This document shows positions 36,968 through 46,681 of a stretch of 64,000 nt of DNA, one piece after another. Below the pieces are notes generated by a model. The model searched no databases, had not been told where the DNA came from, and saw only the letters and a list, made by a program, of their open reading frames with translations. Numbering within the stretch: position 1 is the stretch's first letter; each line of letters begins with the position of its first letter. Where the stretch lies: assembly GCF_011047135.1 (NCBI RefSeq), contig NZ_CP049255.1, positions 1,364,001-1,428,000 on the forward strand. The letters are read 5' to 3'. Made by a program: the position numbers and the translations under genes. The DNA comes from Microbacterium endophyticum (lineage in GTDB: Bacteria > Actinomycetota > Actinomycetes > Actinomycetales > Microbacteriaceae).

Positions 36968-38463
36968 GAACCCGGAGCGTAGTCCTTCAGGAAGACGCCG
37001 AAAACGTCTTCGCCAGCTTCGCCGCGCACGATCGGGTCGTACACGCGCGCTGCACCGTCGACGAGGTCGAGGGGCGCGTGAAAGCCCTCCTCGGCCAATC
37101 GCACCTTCGTCGGGTGCGGGCGTTCGTCGGTGATCCAACCGGTGTCGACACTGGTCATGAGAATGCGATCCGACTCGAACATTTCGCGCGCGCTCGTGCG
37201 CGTCAGCATGTTCACGGCAGCTTTCGCCATGTTGGTGTGCGGATGCCCCGGCCCCTTGTACCCGCGACCGAACACGCCCTCCATCGCACTGACGTTGACG
37301 ACGTATTTGCGGTGTCCGTCGCTGGCGGCAAGGGATGGCCGCAGCTTCGATATGAGAATGAACGGGGCCGTCGTGTTGGCGAGCTGCACTTCGAGCATTT
37401 CAAGCGGGTCGACCTGATCGACATGCTGAGTCCACGAGTTGATGTCGTGGAGGTCGGGCACGAGTCCGCCGGCATCGATTGCGGTACCGGCAGCAAGCCG
37501 CTCGAGCGAACTCGACCCGGCAGCCATCGCCTGCTCTGTCAGTTCTTCGGCTCGAGCGGATGCCGCCGCCAAAATCGGGTGCGAGGTCACCGACTGCGCG
37601 AGAGCCTGCGGGTGGCGGTCGTTCGTGTGCCCGAAGGTGATGAGCTCGGGCAACGGACCGTCGGGCAACGGTGCGAGTTCGGCATCCACGAGGGGCTGAT
37701 ACGCACCCGTCGATCGGCGCACCGTCTGCGTGGCGTTGTTGATCAGAATGTCGAGGGGCCCGGCTGCGGCAACATCTTCGGCGAGACCGATCACTTGGGC
37801 CGGGTCACGCAGGTCGATTCCGACCACTTTCAAGCGGTGCAACCATTCCGCTGAATCGGGAAGGCTGCTGAATCGACGCACGGCGTCGCGGGGAAAGCGC
37901 GTCGTGATCGTGGTGTGCGCGCCGTCACGCAGCAAGCGAAGCGCAATGTACATACCGATCTTCGCTCGTCCACCGGTGAGCAGTGCACGCTTCCCCGTGA
38001 GATCGGTGCGGGCGTCGCGCTTTGCGTGGCTCATCGCGGCGCACTCTTGGCACAGCTGGTGGTAGAACGCATCGACAACCGTGTACGGCTTTTTGCAGAT
38101 GTAGCATCCGCGCGCTTTCAAAAGCGTGCCGGCAGTAGGTGCCGTCGTGGCCGTTGAAATCGGGATGCCGCGGGTCTCATCGTCGATGCGGTCGGGAGCG
38201 CCCGTCGCGGTCTTTGCCACAACAGCTTTGTCGGCAGCAACGATGGCGTCGCGAATTTCTCGGCGACGAACGCGCTTTACGGCCTTGAACATTGCCGCGG
38301 TCGCGCGGCGCACCTGCACGTAGTCGGGGTGCTCTTCGTCGATGCTCGACATCCCGGCGAGCACCTTGAGAGTGATCGCCAGCTCGTCGGGGTCGATCGC
38401 GGGCGTGTAGTCGCCTGGCGTCTCGCTACCGTCTGGCTGCGGTTCTGTCGTCTCGGAGGGCAC
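36961..38463 (-). CDS. SDR-like oxidoreductase with N-terminal zinc ribbon
   Basis: A 500-residue protein. An N-terminal helical region (to about 110) is followed by a CxxC...CxxC zinc ribbon (Cys120, 123, 138 and 141: GCYICKKPYT and CQECAAM) and a Rossmann SDR domain from about residue 158 (RALLTGGRAKIGMYIALRLL, DILINNATQTVRR). The usual Tyr-x-x-x-Lys is Thr-x-x-x-Lys (TNMAK), so the catalytic Tyr is absent. I recall the same domain order in other bacteria and in some eukaryotes. The GTG at 38463 lies 5 nt behind TAGAAT; the frame is open upstream but there it reads antisense to a tRNA-like element. Confidence 0.82.
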   Translation of the reverse strand: MPSETTEPQPDGSETPGDYTPAIDPDELAITLKVLAGMSSIDEEHPDYVQVRRATAAMFKAVKRVRRREIRDAIVAADKAVVAKTATGAPDRIDDETRGIPISTATTAPTAGTLLKARGCYICKKPYTVVDAFYHQLCQECAAMSHAKRDARTDLTGKRALLTGGRAKIGMYIALRLLRDGAHTTITTRFPRDAVRRFSSLPDSAEWLHRLKVVGIDLRDPAQVIGLAEDVAAAGPLDILINNATQTVRRSTGAYQPLVDAELAPLPDGPLPELITFGHTNDRHPQALAQSVTSHPILAAASARAEELTEQAMAAGSSSLERLAAGTAIDAGGLVPDLHDINSWTQHVDQVDPLEMLEVQLANTTAPFILISKLRPSLAASDGHRKYVVNVSAMEGVFGRGYKGPGHPHTNMAKAAVNMLTRTSAREMFESDRILMTSVDTGWITDERPHPTKVRLAEEGFHAPLDLVDGAARVYDPIVRGEAGEDVFGVFLKDYAPGSW

Positions 38464-38562
38464 ATGCGATTCTAGGCCGAAGCCGCTCACCCGCGGGCGA
38501 TGAGACGCTATCGTTCGCTCGCTTAACCAGCTAGACCGGCAGGGCAAGTGAGCGCGAGGGCC

Positions 38563-38610
38563 CACGCCTGAAAATCGTGAGGTCACGGGATCGACGCCCG
38601 TCGGAGCCAC
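38563..38610 (+). repeat. tRNA-like 3' half, left boundary copy of the accessory region
   Basis: The bases resemble the anticodon loop, variable loop and T arm of a tRNA: CTGAAAATCGTGAGGTCA (38568-38585), T stem ACGGG/CCCGT (38585-38589, 38597-38601), and CGGAGCC-A as an acceptor 3' strand. The 5' half cannot be matched, so it is not a complete tRNA gene. The 18-mer recurs exactly at 45495-45512. A terminator follows at 38640. The rest of 38464-38933 has no gene. Confidence 0.55.
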
Positions 38611-38639
38611 ACGGGTGATCATTACGTCACCCCAGAAAC

Positions 38640-38676
38640 CCTCGCGGAGCTTCTATCCGCGGAGGTTTTGCTTTTT
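38640..38676 (+). terminator. Intrinsic terminator after the tRNA-like element
   Basis: CCTC-GCGGA pairs with TCCGC-GGAGG (one bulged G) around GCTTCTA and is followed by TTTTGCTTTTT. The U-rich tail is strong for this GC-rich genome. It implies a rightward transcript across the tRNA-like element, past or present. Confidence 0.7.
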
Positions 38677-38933
38677 CCTGGTGAGACGCGGTTTCTAGGT
38701 GGCACTCTCGCCTGCTCCGGCTGATCGCTGAGCGAGCGAAAGCTCCCGCCCATTGAGCGAGCGCGGCGAGACGAGATGTCCTCGGCATGGAGCTTGGGCC
38801 GGTCTGGGGCCGGTTGCGTCCCAGGTTTTCGTCGGTTTGACGACGCCGATCCTGGCGAATTCTCTCGCACGGCCGGATCGATAGGCTCGTAGAACCCGGC
38901 ACGGTTCCGGCATGAACTTGGGCGGGAGACGCC

Positions 38934-39686
38934 ATGGTCGACGAAGAGATCGCGTACGAGACGAACACAGTTCGCGCAATCCGCGGGATGGAGGCGCGGA
39001 CCGTGGCGAAATGGGAGTCCGAGGGCTGGGAACTCGTTTCACAGAAGCCGGGCAAGTTGCAGACGGAGATCACTTTCCGGCGCCCCAAGAAAAAGACACG
39101 CTGGGTCCCTTGGGCGGTCGGGGGCGGAGTGCTCGCGATCGCACTTGCTTTGATCATCACCTTCGGCGTCATCGGAGAACGCAACGCAGCTCTCGACGCG
39201 ACTCCAAGCGCTGCGCCATCAGAGCCCTCCGTGACCACAAGCGAGGCGGCGACCCCGGAGCCGACGACACCCGAAGCGGAACCGACGGAGGAAGCCGACG
39301 TTGTGCTGACGCCGGAGACCAACGCTGAGCTGGCAGCCCTCCTAATACTCACCGACTACTGCGACCCCTCGATCGCGACATTCGCAAGCACTTACCGTGG
39401 CCAGACGATTGCATTCCCGGGATATATTGGCGCGCTGGCTCCTCACGACGGCGCGACGACCCGGTATGACATCCTCATCGGCGCCGGAGACTTCAGCGAG
39501 ACGTCCGCACCTGGCCCCGCATTTCAGTTCCGTGACGTGAACACAACGAATGACCTCAACTTCGCCGGCGCCGTGCCCGACACGATCGGTGTCGGAACCA
39601 ACCTCAACGTCACGGCTGAGGTCGGCACCTACGAAACCAGCTCATGCCTGTTCTTGTTGGACCCCATCTCGACTGCCGTTCGGTAG
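38934..39686 (+). CDS. DUF4839 domain protein, membrane-anchored
   Basis: A 250-residue actinobacterial protein. Cytoplasmic N-terminus (about 55 residues), one transmembrane helix (WAVGGGVLAIALALIITFGV), a Ser/Thr/Pro/Glu-rich linker and an outer DUF4839 domain with STYRGQTIAFPGYIGALAPH, TRYDILIGAGDFSE, GPAFQFRDVNTTNDLNFAGA and SCLFLLDPISTAVR. Its function is unknown. The ATG at 38934 is preceded by GGGAG. It is the first gene right of the left tRNA-like repeat. Confidence 0.83.
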   Translation: MVDEEIAYETNTVRAIRGMEARTVAKWESEGWELVSQKPGKLQTEITFRRPKKKTRWVPWAVGGGVLAIALALIITFGVIGERNAALDATPSAAPSEPSVTTSEAATPEPTTPEAEPTEEADVVLTPETNAELAALLILTDYCDPSIATFASTYRGQTIAFPGYIGALAPHDGATTRYDILIGAGDFSETSAPGPAFQFRDVNTTNDLNFAGAVPDTIGVGTNLNVTAEVGTYETSSCLFLLDPISTAVR

Positions 39687-39973
39687 TCGAGCAGCAAGCA
39701 TCCCTCGGCGTCGGATCTCGGCGATCACCGGGCTGCGGGGTTACTTCTTGCCGCTTGAACGAGAAATGTAGGGATCGACGCTGAACGGCCGAAGCTCAGT
39801 TGAAACTGCCTCACAGACGACGAAGGCGCCGCGGGAAAAGAACGCGTCGAGGCTGACCGGGATTGGTGGCTAAATCGCCATCTCTAGTTCCTCTCAATTG
39901 GCTCAGATTGCAGCTTATGCAAGCGCCTCTGCTTTACCCCTTTATTTTCCGTAAGTACTTACGCGCTTGAGGA
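39687..39973. other. Non-coding stretch with a perfect 14-bp palindrome
   Basis: No gene is seen between the DUF4839 stop and the next small gene. The end of the stretch is AT-richer than its surroundings and holds the perfect palindrome CGTAAGTACTTACG (39950-39963), 10 bp before the next start. It may be an operator for that module. Confidence 0.45.
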
Positions 39974-40363
39974 TTGCACGATTGCAGCGTGGTCATTGAC
40001 ATCGCGCAGGACATCCCCTCTGGGGTCGCTGGACTGATCTCTCTCCTCACTGCGGTGAGCACGAATCTCGATCTCGGCATGCGCAACCGCACCCGTCCTG
40101 GGTGCGCTCCCGTCAAAGTGGATCTACCCGCCAACGAGACCGAGGCGTGGCTGTTTCGCGCGACGGGCATCAGCACGCAGTTGGCGGGCCGATCAGCTGA
40201 TCTCAGAGTGCTAGTCACGGCGTACAGCCAGGCGGTTGCAGTGAAGCGCCCCGAGCTTGCACAGCTAGCCCAGTGGCAACAGATCTCTCCTAGTGCGCTG
40301 CGGCATCGATACACGCCCCTGCACGTGCAAGCAGCCCAAGAGCTCACCAAAAGGACCCACTGA
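39974..40363 (+). CDS. Orphan small protein, possible HTH
   Basis: A 129-residue frame starting with TTG at 39974. I do not recognise a family. The C-terminal part (LAQLAQWQQISPSALRHRYT) has the spacing of a helix-turn-helix. It is followed at once by another small frame that is interrupted, so both belong to one orphan module inside the accessory region. Support is moderate: codon use is sensible and a palindrome lies in front, but no homology is evident to me. Confidence 0.5.
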   Translation: MHDCSVVIDIAQDIPSGVAGLISLLTAVSTNLDLGMRNRTRPGCAPVKVDLPANETEAWLFRATGISTQLAGRSADLRVLVTAYSQAVAVKRPELAQLAQWQQISPSALRHRYTPLHVQAAQELTKRTH

Positions 40364-40386
40364 TCGACATCGTCCTCGAGCCGTTC

Positions 40387-40727
40387 GTGGCGGTCGTGGA
40401 TAGCGACTTCAAAGGAATCTCACCGTTGCTGGATACGCAGCTCAGCATCCGCTCGAGCATTCGAAGCCTCGCCACCGATGCATTCCTCGAGACGTTCGGT
40501 GATGATGCACCTCAGAAGCTCGGTTTCGTCCGCAACCCCCCGACGAGCGACTTACCCGACCGATCGCTGACCTGGCCGCCTTCATGGTCCGGACACTCGA
40601 GCAACGCGACCCGTCGTTGTTAAACGTGTTCGAAGAGTGGCGCAGTCGATTCGACGCACGCGAGATCAAGGGGGACGAAGACAGTTCGAACGCGACACGC
40701 GTCCGCCGACCAGCGGGCGCCCGTTGA
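40387..40727 (+). pseudogene. Orphan small gene with a frameshift in a C-run
   Basis: The frame from GTG at 40387 (AVVDSDFKGISPLLDTQLSI) reads well to KLGFVRNPP and then becomes Ser/Trp-rich nonsense. In the +2 frame a coherent continuation appears directly after the C6 run at 40536-40541: DERLTRPIADLAAFMVRTLE, QRDPSLLNVFEEWRSRFDAR, ending at the TGA 40725-40727. One extra C would join both parts into a protein of about 114 residues. This is either a real inactivating frameshift or a base-calling error in a homopolymer. The function is unknown. Confidence 0.6.
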
Positions 40728-40768
40728 CTCCGTCACCTAGAGCTGTGAGAACTTTCTTTACTCATTCA

Positions 40769-40845
40769 AGGTCGGCCTCCGGCCGGCAGCGCTGCCTGCG
40801 GTGCGTCCGGTCCTCGCTCCGCTGCGGTCCGGGCGCTCCTCAGCG
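40769..40845. repeat. GC-rich cluster of palindromes
   Basis: Several short perfect inverted repeats lie back to back, for example GGCCTCCGGCC, GGCAGCGCTGCC and a CCGGTCC...GGTCCGG arm. They sit between the frameshifted orphan gene and the 3' end of the OLD-like nuclease gene and could act as a two-sided transcription stop. No T-run follows. The rest of 40728-40871 has no gene. Confidence 0.45.
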
Positions 40846-40871
40846 GCACACCCGAGCATCTTGTAACCCCA

Positions 40872-42710
40872 TCACGCATCAACTCGCTCGCCGTTCGCCA
40901 CACGGCTTCCAGCCAATCGACGCCCCACTTCTGTTACACGGACGATGTGTTCCTGCGTAGTCGCATTACGGTGCTGCTCGCTCCGGAAGGCCTCCTCGAG
41001 CCAAGCCGGTCCCTTTCGCGCGATGACGTCCGGAGCGAGCCTCTCGAGCTCCCCTGCGCGCACGAGCACCAACCCAACTGTCTCCATTCGCTCTAACAGC
41101 TGAAGCAGCGCCGCTCGCGCTTGGCCATTGAAGGCAGCGATGCCGTGCTTCTTGACCTCCGCCCAAGGAGACTCACGTGAGCGAATTTGGGAGAGCACCT
41201 CGTCGCGGACGACCGGGGTGTAGATCTCATCGCGCCGAGGAGTCAATGTTCCTGCGACCGCGTCGAGTACGTGAGCGATCTTGACCGGCTCCCGTGGCGC
41301 ACGCTGAGCGGCCGTCGCCGTGGACCATAGTGACGAAAGATCGTCGTCCCACTGGCCACCAAGGGCGTTGAACAGCCGCTTCGTCTCGCCTTCGTCGGAA
41401 ATGATATCCATGTCGGGGGCGGCGACGACGGGGACATCGACGGCACGTAGCGCCTCAGCAAGCTTCCACATCCCTTGCTTGCCAGCGCTCGCAACGAAGA
41501 GCGCTTCGCCGCTGGGCGAAGCCCCAGCACTTTCATTGAGGACTCCAGCGGCCGCGGCCAAGTACGCACAGTCACCCTCGGCTTCGGCAAGGACCACCAC
41601 CTGATGGAATAAGCCGTCGAGAACATTCGAGTACTTCAGGACCGGATCCGTCCATATGCTCCTCAGCTGGGCCGCGTCGAGTTGGCGCACTGCTGAGCTG
41701 GTGTCGCTCCGACTCACACGAACCACGGAGACGTCACCACCGGAGTCGAGCAAACCCGTCAACAGATGACGATCATGGGTCGCAACGATGATCTGCGTGC
41801 CGCGCTCAGTAGCGATCTTCCCCAGCTCGACACCAAGTGCATGCGCCTGCGGGGGATGCAGGAACGCCTCCGGCTCATCCAAGAGGATCAGCGGATAGGT
41901 TGCGGTGACGACTGGCAGGAGCTGCCCGAAGAAGCTCCGCATGCCGTCTCCTTGCTCGTCGAGCGCGGGCAAAGCACCCATAGCCTCGCGGTACTCGCGC
42001 GACACATCGTTGTATCGCGGCGCCTCGCCCGGAAGCGATCCGACGCGAAGCCGAACAGTACGTGCCAACGTGTCGAGCGTGAGAGTGCGGCCGAAAACTC
42101 GCTGGCTAATGTCACTCAGACGCTGGCGCAGGTCGACGGAATCCTCGAGATAGTGGACAGGGTGCGTTGGAGGCATCAGTACAGAGTCCCGCAGCTCGGC
42201 TGATGCTCCGAGGCTAAGGCGCCCCGACGCGTCTCCATAGAAGGTCAAGAAGGCACAAAGCCCGCCTATCCCTCCGGTGCCACCACGCTCGACAGTTCGG
42301 ATGTTCCAGTAGTACTCGAAGGACTCCGCGTTCTCTTGCGACGCCCGCGCGCGGGCAAAATATGTGTTGGGTCCGTCCACGACTGGTGTTGAGTTCTCAA
42401 GCATCCACGCGACGAGATCAGCAGGACTGTCCGATCCCGCTATCGACACCGCCTCAACCAGGATACGTGGCGGTTGAATCTGTCCTGGGTGGACTCCGAT
42501 GTATGTGTGCGCTTCTCGAAGGAGAGTCGACTTTCCCGCGTTGTTGGCGCCAACAATTGCTGTGACCCCAGCACGCTGCGGTCTAATGACGTCGCCACCC
42601 TGAACGCGGATCTCCTCCAGAGAAAAGCTGAAACCTGCCGGGTCGCCACCCAAGAGATGCGAGTGACGGGCGCTGTACAGCGTTTCAAACTCTGCCTTAT
42701 CGATGCTCCG
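40872..42710 (-). CDS. OLD-like ATP-dependent nuclease (AAA ATPase plus TOPRIM)
   Basis: A 612-residue protein. The ABC-type ATPase has Walker A TAIVGANNAGKSTLLREAHT, a Q-rich middle, and Walker B LILLDEPEAFLHPPQAHALG with the H-loop VATHDRHLL. A TOPRIM-like domain follows: VVVLAEAEGDCAYLAAAAG (acidic first strand) and VPVVAAPDMDIISDEG (Asp-x-Asp). This is the class 1 OLD family, known in phage P2 and in anti-phage islands. No partner gene such as a UvrD-like helicase is adjacent, so it would be a single-gene system. The ATG at 42710 is preferred; 42773 is possible. Confidence 0.85.
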   Translation of the reverse strand, partial: RSIDKAEFETLYSARHSHLLGGDPAGFSFSLEEIRVQGGDVIRPQRAGVTAIVGANNAGKSTLLREAHTYIGVHPGQIQPPRILVEAVSIAGSDSPADLVAWMLENSTPVVDGPNTYFARARASQENAESFEYYWNIRTVERGGTGGIGGLCAFLTFYGDASGRLSLGASAELRDSVLMPPTHPVHYLEDSVDLRQRLSDISQRVFGRTLTLDTLARTVRLRVGSLPGEAPRYNDVSREYREAMGALPALDEQGDGMRSFFGQLLPVVTATYPLILLDEPEAFLHPPQAHALGVELGKIATERGTQIIVATHDRHLLTGLLDSGGDVSVVRVSRSDTSSAVRQLDAAQLRSIWTDPVLKYSNVLDGLFHQVVVLAEAEGDCAYLAAAAGVLNESAGASPSGEALFVASAGKQGMWKLAEALRAVDVPVVAAPDMDIISDEGETKRLFNALGGQWDDDLSSLWSTATAAQRAPREPVKIAHVLDAVAGTLTPRRDEIYTPVVRDEVLSQIRSRESPWAEVKKHGIAAFNGQARAALLQLLERMETVGLVLVRAGELERLAPDVIARKGPAWLEEAFRSEQHRNATTQEHIVRVTEVGRRLAGSRVANGERVDA

Positions 42711-43007
42711 CATGTAGACATAGTCCCATGACTTGTCCGGCCGGTCCCGAGAAGGGAACCCGGGTGAAACCACCCACCCAGCTCACGCCACGGCTGCGGA
42801 ATTAAGCCTCGTAAGTAGATGCGGGAGGGCAGCTCAGAAGCGCGGGCATCGATCGCGTCCGCGGGTCTGCTTCACACGCCGCCCAACGCCGGAAACGCAG
42901 CCCATCCTTCTCTAGAGGGTCACTGACGCCGATGTTCGTGTCTGGCGCTTGCAAGCCCTCAGCCAAATCTCTGTGGGATGTCCGAGGTGTGAAGTATGGT
43001 GTGAACC
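42711..43007. other. Divergent intergenic region between the nuclease and the TIGR04255 operon
   Basis: No gene is seen. It must carry promoters in both directions. On the plus side TATGGT (42995-43000) lies 7 nt before the ATG at 43008. It is embedded in a direct repeat GGTGTGAA (42986-42993 and 42998-43005, 12 bp apart) that could bind the HTH protein of the operon. Confidence 0.5.
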
Positions 43008-43823
43008 ATGACTGATCGAGAGCGTTACCGCCCGTTCACGAACGACCCAAACGCGCGAGTGCGCTTTGATGCTGCCCCGCTCGAGTTCGTTCTCTGCCAG
43101 ATCCGGTGGCCTAGTCTGGCCGCCCTGCAAGGTGACATTAGTCCAGTTGCGAAGAAGTTCGGCTCACTTCTGTCCGGCTTTCCTCTCTACACCGAAGCCC
43201 AGGAGATGTCGATCGAGGTGACACCCGAAGGTGTCAAACAATATCCGGCCGGAACGGTGTACCAGTGGAGCTCCGCCGACAGGACGATTGGAGTGAGTTT
43301 CACGAAAGACTTCGTGGCCCTCACGTCCAAGAATTACGCAGGGTACGAATCGTTCAACGCCCAGCTCCGTGATGTACTCACAGCCCTCGATGAGTCCGCC
43401 GATATCCCTCTCATCGAACGAATTGGTGTGCGCTACCTAAATCGAATCACCGATGAGAATCATGTGGCCCGCATTGACGAGCTTGTTCACCCCGAATTAC
43501 TTGGGCACCAGGCGTTGAAGCCGGCCACTTCCGAGGTCCATCTGGTGCAAGCCCTTACACAATCGCTTTTCCAAGTCGGAAGTGGACACCTTCAGGCCCG
43601 GTCAGGCATGTTGGCTCCCGGCGAAACACTTGATCCGACGGTGGAATCTCTTCCGACCCAGTCTTGGGTGCTGGATATCGATTCATTCCGACAGCACGAG
43701 CTGGTCTTCAGCGTGGAGAACGCGCTTGCTGAGGCCGGCCGCCTCTCAGACGCGGCCTACGATTTCTTTAAGCTCGTTATTCGTCAGGGATTCGTCGAAG
43801 CGTTTGAAGGGAGGGAGCTTTGA
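43008..43823 (+). CDS. TIGR04255 family protein
   Basis: A 271-residue soluble protein of the sporadically distributed TIGR04255 family. Typical segments are VRFDAAPLEFVLCQIRWPSL near the N-terminus, TVYQWSSADRTIGVSFTKDF, and IPLIERIGVRYLNRIT. No catalytic motif is known. It is the first gene of a three-gene operon: the next start (TTG 43820) overlaps its stop. The ATG at 43008 lies 7 nt behind TATGGT, consistent with a leaderless mRNA. Patchy distribution and location next to an OLD-like nuclease point to a defence or mobile-element role, which is inference. Confidence 0.85.
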   Translation: MTDRERYRPFTNDPNARVRFDAAPLEFVLCQIRWPSLAALQGDISPVAKKFGSLLSGFPLYTEAQEMSIEVTPEGVKQYPAGTVYQWSSADRTIGVSFTKDFVALTSKNYAGYESFNAQLRDVLTALDESADIPLIERIGVRYLNRITDENHVARIDELVHPELLGHQALKPATSEVHLVQALTQSLFQVGSGHLQARSGMLAPGETLDPTVESLPTQSWVLDIDSFRQHELVFSVENALAEAGRLSDAAYDFFKLVIRQGFVEAFEGREL

Positions 43824-44380
43824 GCACCGCCGCCCCACCAATCCGGAATAGGCGTCGGCCGCAGCACCCAGCCCGGATCGCACAGTTCAGCATCGCAGCA
43901 GCAGCGATCACGTCATCGATAGCATTCGCGGGCGTCCCCGCCGTCACTTGGTCCGGTACCACCGCTGCACACCAACGCCCGTCCGCCCGCGTCCCATTCG
44001 CCGACATCACGGCAATGGGCTCTACGTACCGAACCGTCGTGGAACTTAACGACCGCTCAGCCTCAGCAGGTAACTCAGTCACTCGGCTACGCGAACTCTC
44101 TAACCTGACAGCAGACCAGCTAGCACGCCTCTTTGACGTCTCCCGCCGTTCTATCCAGAACTGGATTAGCGGTGAACCGATGGCGGCGACCCATGAGGAG
44201 CGCCTTAGCCACCTGACATCGGTGATCAGCGCGGCGGGAGCGACCCCTGAGGAACGCCGCAAGAAACTTCTCAGCTCGGCGAACGGTATGAGCCTTTTCC
44301 ACCAGCTAGTCGGCGAGCTTGAGGATGAGGAAATACTCGATCCTGCACCTGTCTCGGCCCGAGATCGCCTCCTCGCCTGA
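43820..44380 (+). CDS. Helix-turn-helix protein with N-terminal hydrophobic segment
   Basis: A 186-residue protein. Residues 18-42 (ARIAQFSIAAAAITSSIAFA then GVPAVTW) form a probable membrane helix or signal anchor. The middle holds an XRE-type helix-turn-helix (about 92-115: LTADQLARLFDVSRRSIQNW), followed by a charged helical C-terminus. A membrane-tethered DNA-binding protein would be unusual. The start is TTG at 43820, overlapping the TIGR04255 stop, and its own stop is 1 bp before the next ATG, so all three genes are tightly coupled. Confidence 0.75.
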   Translation: MSTAAPPIRNRRRPQHPARIAQFSIAAAAITSSIAFAGVPAVTWSGTTAAHQRPSARVPFADITAMGSTYRTVVELNDRSASAGNSVTRLRELSNLTADQLARLFDVSRRSIQNWISGEPMAATHEERLSHLTSVISAAGATPEERRKKLLSSANGMSLFHQLVGELEDEEILDPAPVSARDRLLA

Positions 44381-44381
44381 C

Positions 44382-45398
44382 ATGGAGGCCGGTGACCACC
44401 TTGAGGATATTCGATCCGCACGGCAAGGGGACGTGCTGGCAATCCCGTGGATTCCGACAGTTACGGCGGGACTGCCAGCCCAGCTCCCCACACCTCATGG
44501 AGTCGTAGTCCTCAGCCAAACCTGTGATGTTGTTCGAGATCCCGGCTTCAGACCGAACATTCTGGTGGCTCCAATACTCGATTCTCCCACGCAGCAACAA
44601 TTCTCCGACGCCCGGCGAGGACGCGCACCGCTGTTGCTTCATCTGCCGGCTGTAGGCGGATCGGCGGAGAGGCTCGCCGATCTCCAGCACGCGACTTCAG
44701 TCACCAAGAGCAGCGCGATCGGAGCGCTGCTGACTAGTCGTCACACAACCGCCGACAGCTCTGCCGATGCGGCACATCTGGGAGCGCGCGTCGGCAGAAC
44801 GTACTCAAGATTTGCTTTCCCCGACGAGGTCCACGCCTTCACGGACACTCTGTCCAAGAAAGCGAGGGAAACCAGTGGCTCTTCGAAACCCTTTGGGCGC
44901 GTAATCGACTACGTCGAGGATCTGCGACTCAAGGCAAATCAATGGGATCGGCCAGCTCGAGTGCTGACTCTCTACATTGTCGTGCCAAGTAGGCTTCTTA
45001 TTCACCGCGACGACGTCGACCCTGACTGGAAATGGGCGACAGGTCGACCAGAGAAGTCAAAGCAGACGGAAGACATGAACACGGTCCCGCTCGCACGAGT
45101 TTCGGAAATACTCGCCGATGCGTGCGATGCGTATGAAGCGGACCCGCAAACTGCGAACCTGACCACGCTGTTCCGCCTGTGGCACGCGTGGTCACAGAGG
45201 ACACGTACTGAACTCCTGGACCCACTCATCGGTGAGGAGATAGCGGAGGTAAGGCTAAACCTGGAAAGTGACGATCAGTTCTCGCTGCGGCAGATGAGAC
45301 GCACGGCAAGCCTCGATCTCGAGGATCTCTCCGATTCACGCGGCGCAATGGAAGGAAAACAAGAAGCCGGGCCGGCCCCGGGCCGGGAAATCGATTGA
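44382..45398 (+). CDS. Unrecognised protein with conserved-looking Ser-Gln-Thr-Cys-Asp motif
   Basis: A 338-residue soluble protein I cannot assign. Near the N-terminus it has RQGDVLAIPWIPTVTAGLPA and then HGVVVLSQTCDVVRDPGFRP. The hydrophobic strand ending in SQTCD has the look of a catalytic or metal-binding loop. The rest is mixed alpha/beta with a charged C-terminal tail. I chose the ATG at 44382, one base after the HTH gene's stop; the open frame begins earlier (44319) but inside the HTH gene. It is the third gene of the TIGR04255 operon. Confidence 0.75.
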   Translation: MEAGDHLEDIRSARQGDVLAIPWIPTVTAGLPAQLPTPHGVVVLSQTCDVVRDPGFRPNILVAPILDSPTQQQFSDARRGRAPLLLHLPAVGGSAERLADLQHATSVTKSSAIGALLTSRHTTADSSADAAHLGARVGRTYSRFAFPDEVHAFTDTLSKKARETSGSSKPFGRVIDYVEDLRLKANQWDRPARVLTLYIVVPSRLLIHRDDVDPDWKWATGRPEKSKQTEDMNTVPLARVSEILADACDAYEADPQTANLTTLFRLWHAWSQRTRTELLDPLIGEEIAEVRLNLESDDQFSLRQMRRTASLDLEDLSDSRGAMEGKQEAGPAPGREID

Positions 45399-45484
45399 AA
45401 CCACCCAGAACCAGCCACCACCAACGAGCACGACTTCCGCGGAATCACGCAGCAAACGAGCACTCGTGAGCACCCGTAAACCCG

Positions 45485-45540
45485 GTGCATACGACTGAAA
45501 ATCGTGAGGTCAGCTTCCGGACGCCCTTCCCGGGGCACAC
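45485..45540 (+). repeat. tRNA-like 3' half, right boundary copy of the accessory region
   Basis: CTGAAAATCGTGAGGTCA (45495-45512) repeats 38568-38585 exactly, and after a diverged T arm both copies share GACGCCC. Here the ACGA/TCGT anticodon stem is intact but the T stem is not, so this copy is more decayed. It lies 97 bp past the last gene of the TIGR04255 operon. The remainder of 45399-45593 has no gene. Confidence 0.55.
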
Positions 45541-45593
45541 CTCACACCTACGCGATGCCGTGTCCTGAAGAAACAGACAAATGATGCCGCAAC

Positions 45594-46103
45594 CTATTCG
45601 ACCAACGACCTCGTGGTGAATGTATCTTCCGTGACGGTCAGCGCATTCAGAGCACTGTCCAGACCGACATCCTTCGGTGCACCGCATCCGGTTGTGGGGA
45701 TCGCGACGCGCACGACGTTTCCGCCCACGTCTTCGACCCAGAGCTCGGGAAAAACGTATCCGACAGCTGAGCAGGCCCCGAGTGATCTCGGGTCGCTGGG
45801 CGTAGCGAGAGCAGCGAGCACCGGGCCCAAATCTCCTTCAAGCCGCTCGAGACGTGCTCCCGTCCAGGTGCCATCGGTGTCTTCCCACGTTGCGTCTGGA
45901 TCACATCGAAGAACAGCGGCCGCGGTGAAATCCGGCGGCACGAGTCCCGGCTCGGCATAGCCGTCTTCGTAGGTTTCGGGGCACGTCACTGCCGCGACGG
46001 GCTGAGCTTCGATGCGAGGATCGGGGCCGACCCCAGGAACGATCCCGCATCCGGCCAGCATCATCATGAGGCAGAGGGCCGCAACCACTCGAATTCGTCG
46101 CAT
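45594..46103 (-). CDS. Lipoprotein of unknown function
   Basis: A 169-residue protein with the signal MRRIRVVAALCLMMMLAGCG, a clear lipobox (LAGC). The mature part has several Cys (TCPETYE, LRCDPDATWED, LGACSAVGYVFPELWV, TGCGAPKD) that may form disulfides. No family is recognised. The ATG at 46103 is chosen because it begins the signal peptide; the frame upstream is not signal-like. It is the first chromosomal gene right of the accessory region. Confidence 0.78.
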   Translation of the reverse strand: MRRIRVVAALCLMMMLAGCGIVPGVGPDPRIEAQPVAAVTCPETYEDGYAEPGLVPPDFTAAAVLRCDPDATWEDTDGTWTGARLERLEGDLGPVLAALATPSDPRSLGACSAVGYVFPELWVEDVGGNVVRVAIPTTGCGAPKDVGLDSALNALTVTEDTFTTRSLVE

Positions 46104-46267
46104 CCACCCACCTCCGATATCGACGCTAAACCGCCTTTGACGACGCAACACAACAAGCGCGTAACGATCAGCCCGATACGAACTCGAGGTCGCTGACGAT
46201 TCGTACTGCCGCGCCACCAATCCGCCGCCCAATGGGTCGTGCGCGGCTCAGCACCTATCGTGAAGGG

Positions 46268-46681
46268 GTGACTTCAGCCTCTCCCGATGCCCCACGCCAG
46301 ATCCATGTTTCTGCGGCCGTGATCACTGACTCCGACGGCCGACTGCTGCTCGTGCGAAAAAACGGCACAACGGCATTCATGCAGCCGGGGGGTAAACCCG
46401 AGGCAGGAGAGTCAGCGAGCGAAACTCTCATTCGAGAGCTCGAAGAAGAGATCGGTGTGCGGCTGGGTGCCGATGATCTTGAGCCCCTTGGCACGTTCAC
46501 CGCCGTCGCTGCGAACGAGGCCGGCTTCGATGTTGTCGCCGACGTCTTCGCGGCCAATATCGGAGCGCACCGACCTCAGATCGCGGCCGAGATCGCAGAA
46601 CTCCGCTGGATCACCCGCGCTGATGCCGACCTCATCGAGGTTGCACCTCTTGCCCGCGAGTATTTTCTCCCCGAGGCGTGA
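46268..46681 (+). CDS. Nudix hydrolase
   Basis: A 137-residue Nudix enzyme. The Nudix box is complete, from GGKPEAGESASETLIRELEE to EIGV, with the Glu residues that bind Mg2+. HVSAAVITDSDGRLLLVRKN precedes it and WITRADADLIEVAPLAREYF follows. It hydrolyses a nucleoside diphosphate linked to another moiety; MutT-like or NADH-like use is open. The GTG at 46268 lies 6 nt behind TATCGT (46256-46261), indicating a leaderless start. It is followed by a membrane protein gene after 15 bp. Confidence 0.92.
   Translation: MTSASPDAPRQIHVSAAVITDSDGRLLLVRKNGTTAFMQPGGKPEAGESASETLIRELEEEIGVRLGADDLEPLGTFTAVAANEAGFDVVADVFAANIGAHRPQIAAEIAELRWITRADADLIEVAPLAREYFLPEA

Follow-up and report, generated by a model that had tools for sequence, protein, structure and literature searches.

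A three-gene unit in Microbacterium endophyticum

The window analysed here is a 64,000-nt stretch of Microbacterium endophyticum contig NZ_CP049255.1 (GCF_011047135.1), and all positions refer to it. It contains a compact unit of three open reading frames (ORFs) on the + strand: gene 1 (43008..43823, 271 aa), a member of the TIGR04255 family (NCBIfam, E 4e-37); gene 2 (43820..44380, 186 aa), a helix-turn-helix (HTH) DNA-binding protein of the HTH_3 type (Pfam, E 5.4e-5) with VSRR in its recognition helix; and gene 3 (44382..45398, 338 aa), a candidate effector. The TTG start of gene 2 overlaps the TGA stop of gene 1 by 4 nt and genes 2 and 3 are separated by 1 bp, which confirms the layout given in an earlier annotation of this DNA made from its letters (the sequence-only reading). 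The ORF list holds an alternative, longer TTG start for gene 3 at 44319; the ATG at 44382 is where the closest homologues listed start. Gene 1 scores 128.4 bits against TIGR04255 over residues 19-266 (cut-off 30 bits) and has no PADLOC match at E up to 1, gene 2 has only weak PADLOC matches (best E 0.01), and gene 3 has no match in Pfam, NCBIfam, PADLOC or PHROG at E up to 1, in line with the earlier statement that gene 1 alone belongs to a named, uncharacterised family.

Conservation of the three-gene unit

A protein search with gene 3 identified at least 69 homologous proteins among the best 7998 candidates scored, and a search with gene 2 identified 14. A 46-row gene 3 alignment (A1) was then used to find loci in species-representative genomes, a query that covers loci bearing gene 3 and not gene 1 alone. 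In all 34 loci found, a TIGR04255 gene lies upstream on the same strand and in the same order, and the middle HTH gene was detected by phmmer in 33, the remaining locus (L034) having a middle ORF with an HTH-like segment by eye. According to record titles, the loci belong to actinobacteria, alphaproteobacteria, one gammaproteobacterium and one planctomycete. The sequence-only reading had proposed such a search of genome collections and had staked itself on two points, both of which held: the genes co-occur elsewhere in fixed order, and gene 3 matches no family in the four libraries. A conserved fourth gene was rejected because the downstream genes examined (LanC-like, histidine kinase, AMP-binding enzyme, GH123) differ between loci.

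The unit is also present on mobile DNA. Gene 3 matches three of 72,556 plasmid records at E 1e-3 (Kocuria, Sinorhizobium and Chroococcidiopsis), each with the same three genes on a carrier typed as conjugative or mobilizable; TIGR04255 is named in the annotation of all three, and the other two genes are given as transcriptional regulator, as hypothetical protein or not at all. All three genes are found in five of six loci on viral contigs, the sixth (L153) being cut by the contig end immediately ahead of gene 3, and a phage collection gave no gene 3 match and one partial gene 1 match. TIGR04255 is present in 31/396 genomes of the host phylum and in 0/14 control genomes. The gene 3 profile matches two of 99 same-genus genomes, the host and G071; the latter is a partial match (E 5.7e-4) inside a larger ORF and was not counted as a second carrier, leaving gene 3 in 1/99. 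The sporadic distribution noted earlier for TIGR04255 proteins is borne out by the phylum and genus counts, and the plasmid copies and the insertion described below mark the unit as mobile. The three uncharacterised genes move as a set among distantly related bacteria and share a single conserved DNA switch.

A conserved operator covaries with the recognition helix of gene 2

A comparison across loci of the 70 bases preceding gene 1 revealed the motif TGTGAAGTAnnnTGTGAA. In the window it takes the form TGTGAAGTATGGTGTGAA at 42988..43005 (+ strand), a predicted operator with two TGTGAA half-sites 12 bp apart. With at most two mismatches tolerated and both strands considered, TGTGAAGTANNNTGTGAA lies close to gene 1 in 30 of the 35 loci (the host locus and the 34 found from gene 3), a count that is partly circular because the motif was first noticed in the same loci, and in 24 it sits exactly at -20 from the annotated start. 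An upstream ATG would place it at -20 in L007 too, in L026 and L031 it falls within an over-long gene 1 ORF, and L027, L034 and L035 have no TGTGAA-type operator at up to two mismatches. Three mononucleotide shuffles of 515 kb contained no match, and the real loci contained one extra match away from gene 1 (L005, two mismatches). Outside the discovery set, the motif was exact in L119 (-22) and L144 (-20), had one mismatch in L151 (-20), L148 (-48), L149 and L143 (the last on the other strand) and two in L150, and was not matched in L145 or L152. In the host genome the only perfect copy is the one at 42988-43005, and three more copies differ from the motif at two positions; the exact motif occurs twice in the 396 phylum genomes, at the host locus and at the L119 module; a third VSRR module among these genomes, L131, is truncated at a contig end. 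In the alphaproteobacterial TGTGAA loci (L025, L026, L031-L033) the operator lies on the opposite strand, suggesting that it acts as DNA and not as an RNA leader.

A single promoter had been reported for the operon. A scan for the sigma-70 consensus found no promoter at the operator region; a putative -10 box, TATGGT (TAnnnT), lies inside the operator at 42995..43000 (+ strand), 7 nt ahead of the gene 1 start codon, as read from the sequence and the upstream comparison. Actinobacterial loci likewise have TAnnnT within the operator, seven bases from the start codon, a placement that would fit a leaderless transcript whose promoter is covered by the operator.

The half-site covaries with the gene 2 helix. 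Comparisons were restricted to loci where genes 1 and 2 were both detected, and the automatic tally was corrected by reading, with L130 dropped from the VDRR class (its letters lie outside the HTH) and L035 added (over-long ORF). Among VSRR loci, 33/34 including the host have a TGTGAA-type site, the exception being L131, which has no upstream sequence; within this set one half-site of L014 reads TGAGAA, and L022 and L148 each carry one further mismatch. The VDRR loci L027, L035 and L125 carry TGGGAA as the half-site, with the same 12-bp spacing, and L120, also VDRR, has one TGGGAA half-site and a second, TGGGAT. For nine loci classed as 'other', the automatic tally gave a TGTGAA-type site in 2/9 and none in 7/9; TGTGAA-type sites are present at L025 and L031-L033, which have other helices. 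These loci share descent and are not independent events; the VDRR loci span two groups, alphaproteobacteria and the host phylum. The pairing of VSRR with TGTGAA and VDRR with TGGGAA provides strong comparative support for binding, and together with the conserved operator it upholds the earlier assignment of gene 2 as the regulator, making it a predicted operator-binding autoregulator and a candidate antitoxin. By eye, two TIGR04255 loci (L115, L130) have other direct repeats with a period of about 12 bp upstream of gene 1 (CGTGTAA and GTTACAG), and operators may be class-specific while sharing the 12-bp geometry.

Gene 2 had also been described as membrane-anchored. A moderately hydrophobic N-terminal stretch is present at residues ~25-43, but anchoring is not conserved: a Kyte-Doolittle mean of 1.6 is reached in only 11 of 34 family members, and six of seven alphaproteobacterial members fall below it (some ORF starts being uncertain), which weakens the claim. 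The stretch might cross a membrane or might instead bind a partner. In actinobacterial members it is often followed by Thr/Ser-rich letters.

Gene 3 is predicted to carry a toxin-type fold

Residues ~8-146 of gene 3 (model pLDDT 86.9) are predicted to adopt the MazF/Kid/CcdB barrel fold by Foldseek and VIA-align, and a further C-terminal part follows. The sequence-only reading had singled out the SQTCD motif as a possible active-site loop, and structure prediction of 44382-45398 does place it (residues 45-49) within this toxin-type fold, although without the catalytic residues of MazF. Q46, C48, D49 and R143 are invariant in 35/35 loci rows, and an N-terminal QGD resembles the RGD/RGE of MazF proteins. 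The conserved SQTCD on a MazF-type barrel may be an active site, and the predicted fold supports the earlier casting of gene 3 as the likely effector: it is probably an effector with the shape of known growth-stopping toxins.

Compared with the MazF/PemK/Kid/CcdB toxins (PF02452), gene 3 shares the predicted barrel and the N-terminal triplet but has Q-T-C-D in place of the conserved catalytic Arg and Thr, a large C-terminal part, and no Pfam match; the PF02452 profile itself does not match gene 3 and matches one of 46 homologues at E 0.12. A second MazF-like set was also not significant against the gene 3 alignment.

Gene 1 and the wider set of TIGR04255 operons

The TBP-like fold consists of two repeats of a beta-alpha-beta(n)-alpha unit, and the order of elements in the gene 1 model (pLDDT 92.9) fits this two-repeat topology. 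Foldseek lists TBP chains at probability 0.80-0.98, but with E >0.001, TM ~0.25 and rmsd 10-12; the fold search also gave viral TBP-like matches, and a VIA search gave no TBP among the 50 rows listed. Gene 1 may have a TBP-like fold. A resemblance to SecB-like chaperones, noted by eye, is unproven and was set aside, SecB not being among the rows listed, where TBP, AdoMetDC, guanidino-kinase and Mediator chains appear instead.

TIGR04255 operons were surveyed at 34 of 36 places in the host phylum, the host locus and one fragment being left out, and were classed by reading. Half (17/34) have a third gene with a Cys motif of the SQTCD, SHxC or HPC kind; within this class the middle gene of L121, L124 and L140 is not HTH-like, and the third gene of L140 is split into two ORFs. 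The SHDC-type third proteins (L120, L125) show no link to the gene 3 profile (E 0.01 or weaker). Those of the HPC type match A1 at E 3.6e-7 (prob 93) and 4.7e-5 (prob 68) in the two directions and the loci alignment at E 6.7e-5 (prob 64) and 0.008 (prob 5), and the remaining group matches the gene 3 profile strongly (E ~1e-31). Another six operons have a different, unnamed pair (L137 being placed here from its middle gene alone), two have a similar middle gene, followed in one by a HicA-like gene, two have a HEPN-like gene, four (L112, L113, L114, L123) have no recognisable partner, and there is one each with an HTH gene only, cut off, or of another kind.

The HEPN-like operons, L111 and L129, consist of a TIGR04255 gene, a 174-186 aa gene and a HEPN-like gene of 126-127 aa. 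The HEPN-like protein of L129, the one compared with the PDB, has a PDB sequence match at E 3.3e-4 and a Pfam E of 0.048, and Pfam gave no HEPN match for L111; these operons are a possible further toxin-antitoxin-like type of the TIGR04255 family. The HicA-like gene in L126 is a weak match, below the cut-off (Pfam E 0.045), and has neither a match in NCBIfam nor a related chain in the PDB. In L110, L135, L136, L138, L139 and perhaps L137, a TIGR04255 gene is followed by genes of ~170-220 aa and ~140-160 aa, several with a PAHA-like motif; the L136 pair has no family match above cut-off.

The unit lies within a segment that is extra relative to same-genus genomes

The three genes lie within an extra segment with approximate ends at 38398..46294. 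In five of five same-genus relatives (L045-L049), picked for a well-conserved left flank, a match to window 36.96-38.4 kb is followed by 114-173 bp and then by a match to 46.29-46.68 kb; the flanks nearly adjoin in the relatives, and so about 7.9 kb is extra here. The 'tRNA-like repeats' that had been reported on both sides are in fact a 22-nt direct repeat (38564..38585 and 45491..45512, both + strand; 21/22 identical) that encloses 6.9 kb of the insertion; searches for tRNAs detected none at the two copies. Apart from these two places, the 18-nt core of the repeat is absent from the genome even with one mismatch allowed. The OLD-like neighbour had been recognised correctly: an OLD-like ATPase gene at 40872..42773 (- strand; AAA_21 4.5e-16, PADLOC Old 3.2e-18) lies in the same insertion, outside the module, as does a DUF4839 protein (3.3e-37) at 38934-39686. 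A 38-nt direct repeat, 79% identical, is found at the start of the OLD-like gene (42739-42776) and at the end of gene 3 (45370-45407), both copies ending in identical TGAAACCACCCA.

Neighbour genes of the loci were scanned against PADLOC and Pfam, covering 107 of 147 listed neighbour genes with a simple custom gene caller, 25 of the 86 matched families listed per scan, and no control set. Among the listed families, single neighbours match models of type II and type III methyltransferases, a type II restriction enzyme, MADS or a patatin effector, and many others are ordinary metabolic or regulatory genes. Because the scan had no control set, the defence-family neighbours are not proof of enrichment.

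A toxin-antitoxin-like reading and its alternatives

The reading we favour, with somewhat better than even confidence, is that the unit is a mobile, self-regulated, tripartite toxin-antitoxin-like module, in which toxicity, repression and any role in defence are inferred. It is favoured because a toxin-type fold, an operator-linked HTH neighbour, a third component shared among interchangeable partners and a sporadic, mobile distribution occur together. The gene 2 protein would bind the two TGTGAA half-sites over the promoter region before gene 1, as conservation and covariation suggest, and would thereby repress its own operon. The gene 3 protein would be the effector, its predicted MazF/Kid/CcdB-fold domain bearing the conserved Q-T-C-D site and joined to the C-terminal part. 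The TIGR04255 protein, possibly TBP-like, would be the third component that serves several effector pairs, like the SecB-like chaperones of TAC systems, and would probably restrain the effector or sense a trigger, possibly nucleic acid.

Several points weigh against this reading. Neither the gene 3 nor the gene 1 model has a Foldseek match to the PDB at E 0.001, and gene 3, at 338 aa, exceeds the usual size of MazF-type toxins. MazF catalysis relies on Arg and Thr residues, and neither is conserved in the family alignment or in a weak colinear alignment of uncertain register. Sequence homology to MazF was tried and rejected, A1 aligning by hhalign to 13 of 14 proteins of one MazF cluster at E 0.093 (prob 0.6); because the catalytic residues are absent and this comparison is not significant, the kinship of gene 3 to MazF is one of predicted structure only. 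TIGR04255 may also have another role, since no partner is recognisable in 4/34 phylum loci. The partial circularity of the operator count likewise weighs against the favoured reading.

Known systems offer partial parallels. TAC systems likewise have three genes and an accessory protein shared among different toxin-antitoxin types, their SecB-like chaperones pairing with HigBA, HicAB and MqsRA according to the available part of PMC5105189. Here, by contrast, the accessory protein was not recognised as SecB in the fold-search rows listed, the order is accessory-HTH-effector and the effector is predicted to be MazF-fold. TAC systems serve as the nearest working analogy, and any chaperone addiction here is hypothetical. 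A TBP-like domain is associated with an RNase or toxin in RNase LS (RnlA family) and RNase HIII (PMC3710099, available part), whereas the TBP-like unit here would be a separate protein and the likeness is weak. As in type II toxin-antitoxin systems with XRE-type HTH antitoxins, an HTH gene adjoins the effector gene and an operator lies over the promoter region, but the operator here is a direct repeat with a 12-bp period kept across phyla, and there are three genes.

Anti-phage defence, a special case of the toxin-antitoxin-like reading, is a tenable but less than even prospect. The TIGR04255 protein would sense a phage and free the MazF-fold effector, leading to abortive infection, much as CmdC and CmdT act in CmdTAC, where the chaperone senses a capsid protein and the toxin is released (PMC11618068, available part). 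This three-component precedent, the sporadic and mobile distribution, the OLD-like neighbour and the single neighbours matching restriction-modification, MADS and patatin-effector models argue for it; the uncontrolled scan with its many ordinary neighbours, and the lack of PADLOC matches for genes 1 and 3, argue against it. A second special case, judged slightly less probable, is that the unit serves to maintain a plasmid or island (addiction) and has no dedicated part in defence. This would account for the toxin-type fold, the conserved operator, the conjugative or mobilizable plasmid copies and the chromosomal insertion here, but sits uneasily with the very few plasmid records that match gene 3.

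It is unlikely that the genes form a non-toxic regulatory or repair operon, with gene 3 as a nucleic-acid-binding barrel and TIGR04255 as a nucleic-acid-binding protein. The missing MazF catalytic residues would fit such an operon, as would the binding of DNA-RNA hybrids by the TBP-like domain of RNase HIII (PMC3710099, available part), but the sporadic distribution and the HEPN-like alternative partner do not, and most toxin superfamilies, including Kid/CcdB/PemK/MazF, seem to serve as nothing but toxins, broadly understood (PMC2701414, available part). Least probable is signalling at the membrane through an anchored gene 2 protein, a reading that the stretch at residues 25-43 invites and its poor conservation across the family argues against.

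What is new here is the predicted toxin fold of gene 3, the covarying operator, the HEPN-like or perhaps HicA-like ends of other TIGR04255 operons and the possible TBP-like nature of gene 1. Within a scope that left out most subscription journals and bioRxiv, a full-text literature search gave no paper naming TIGR04255, and no description of the module was found in the titles and abstract openings searched or in the available parts of PMC3710099, PMC2701414 and PMC10865869. The toxin-antitoxin-like reading supplies a first functional frame for TIGR04255, with a predicted partner logic and DNA operator, and the covariation predicts a two-letter recognition code in which Ser or Asp in the helix corresponds to T or G in the half-site. 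A bolder extension, which we regard as speculative and improbable, is a new class of tripartite conflict systems in which a TBP-like TIGR04255 sensor restrains interchangeable HTH-effector pairs, here a MazF-type barrel rebuilt around Cys-Asp with non-MazF chemistry and freed in response to nucleic acid, for example the replication intermediates of a phage. Should the effector prove toxic, its pairing of a MazF-type scaffold and a conserved Cys-Asp site would represent a new toxin chemistry.
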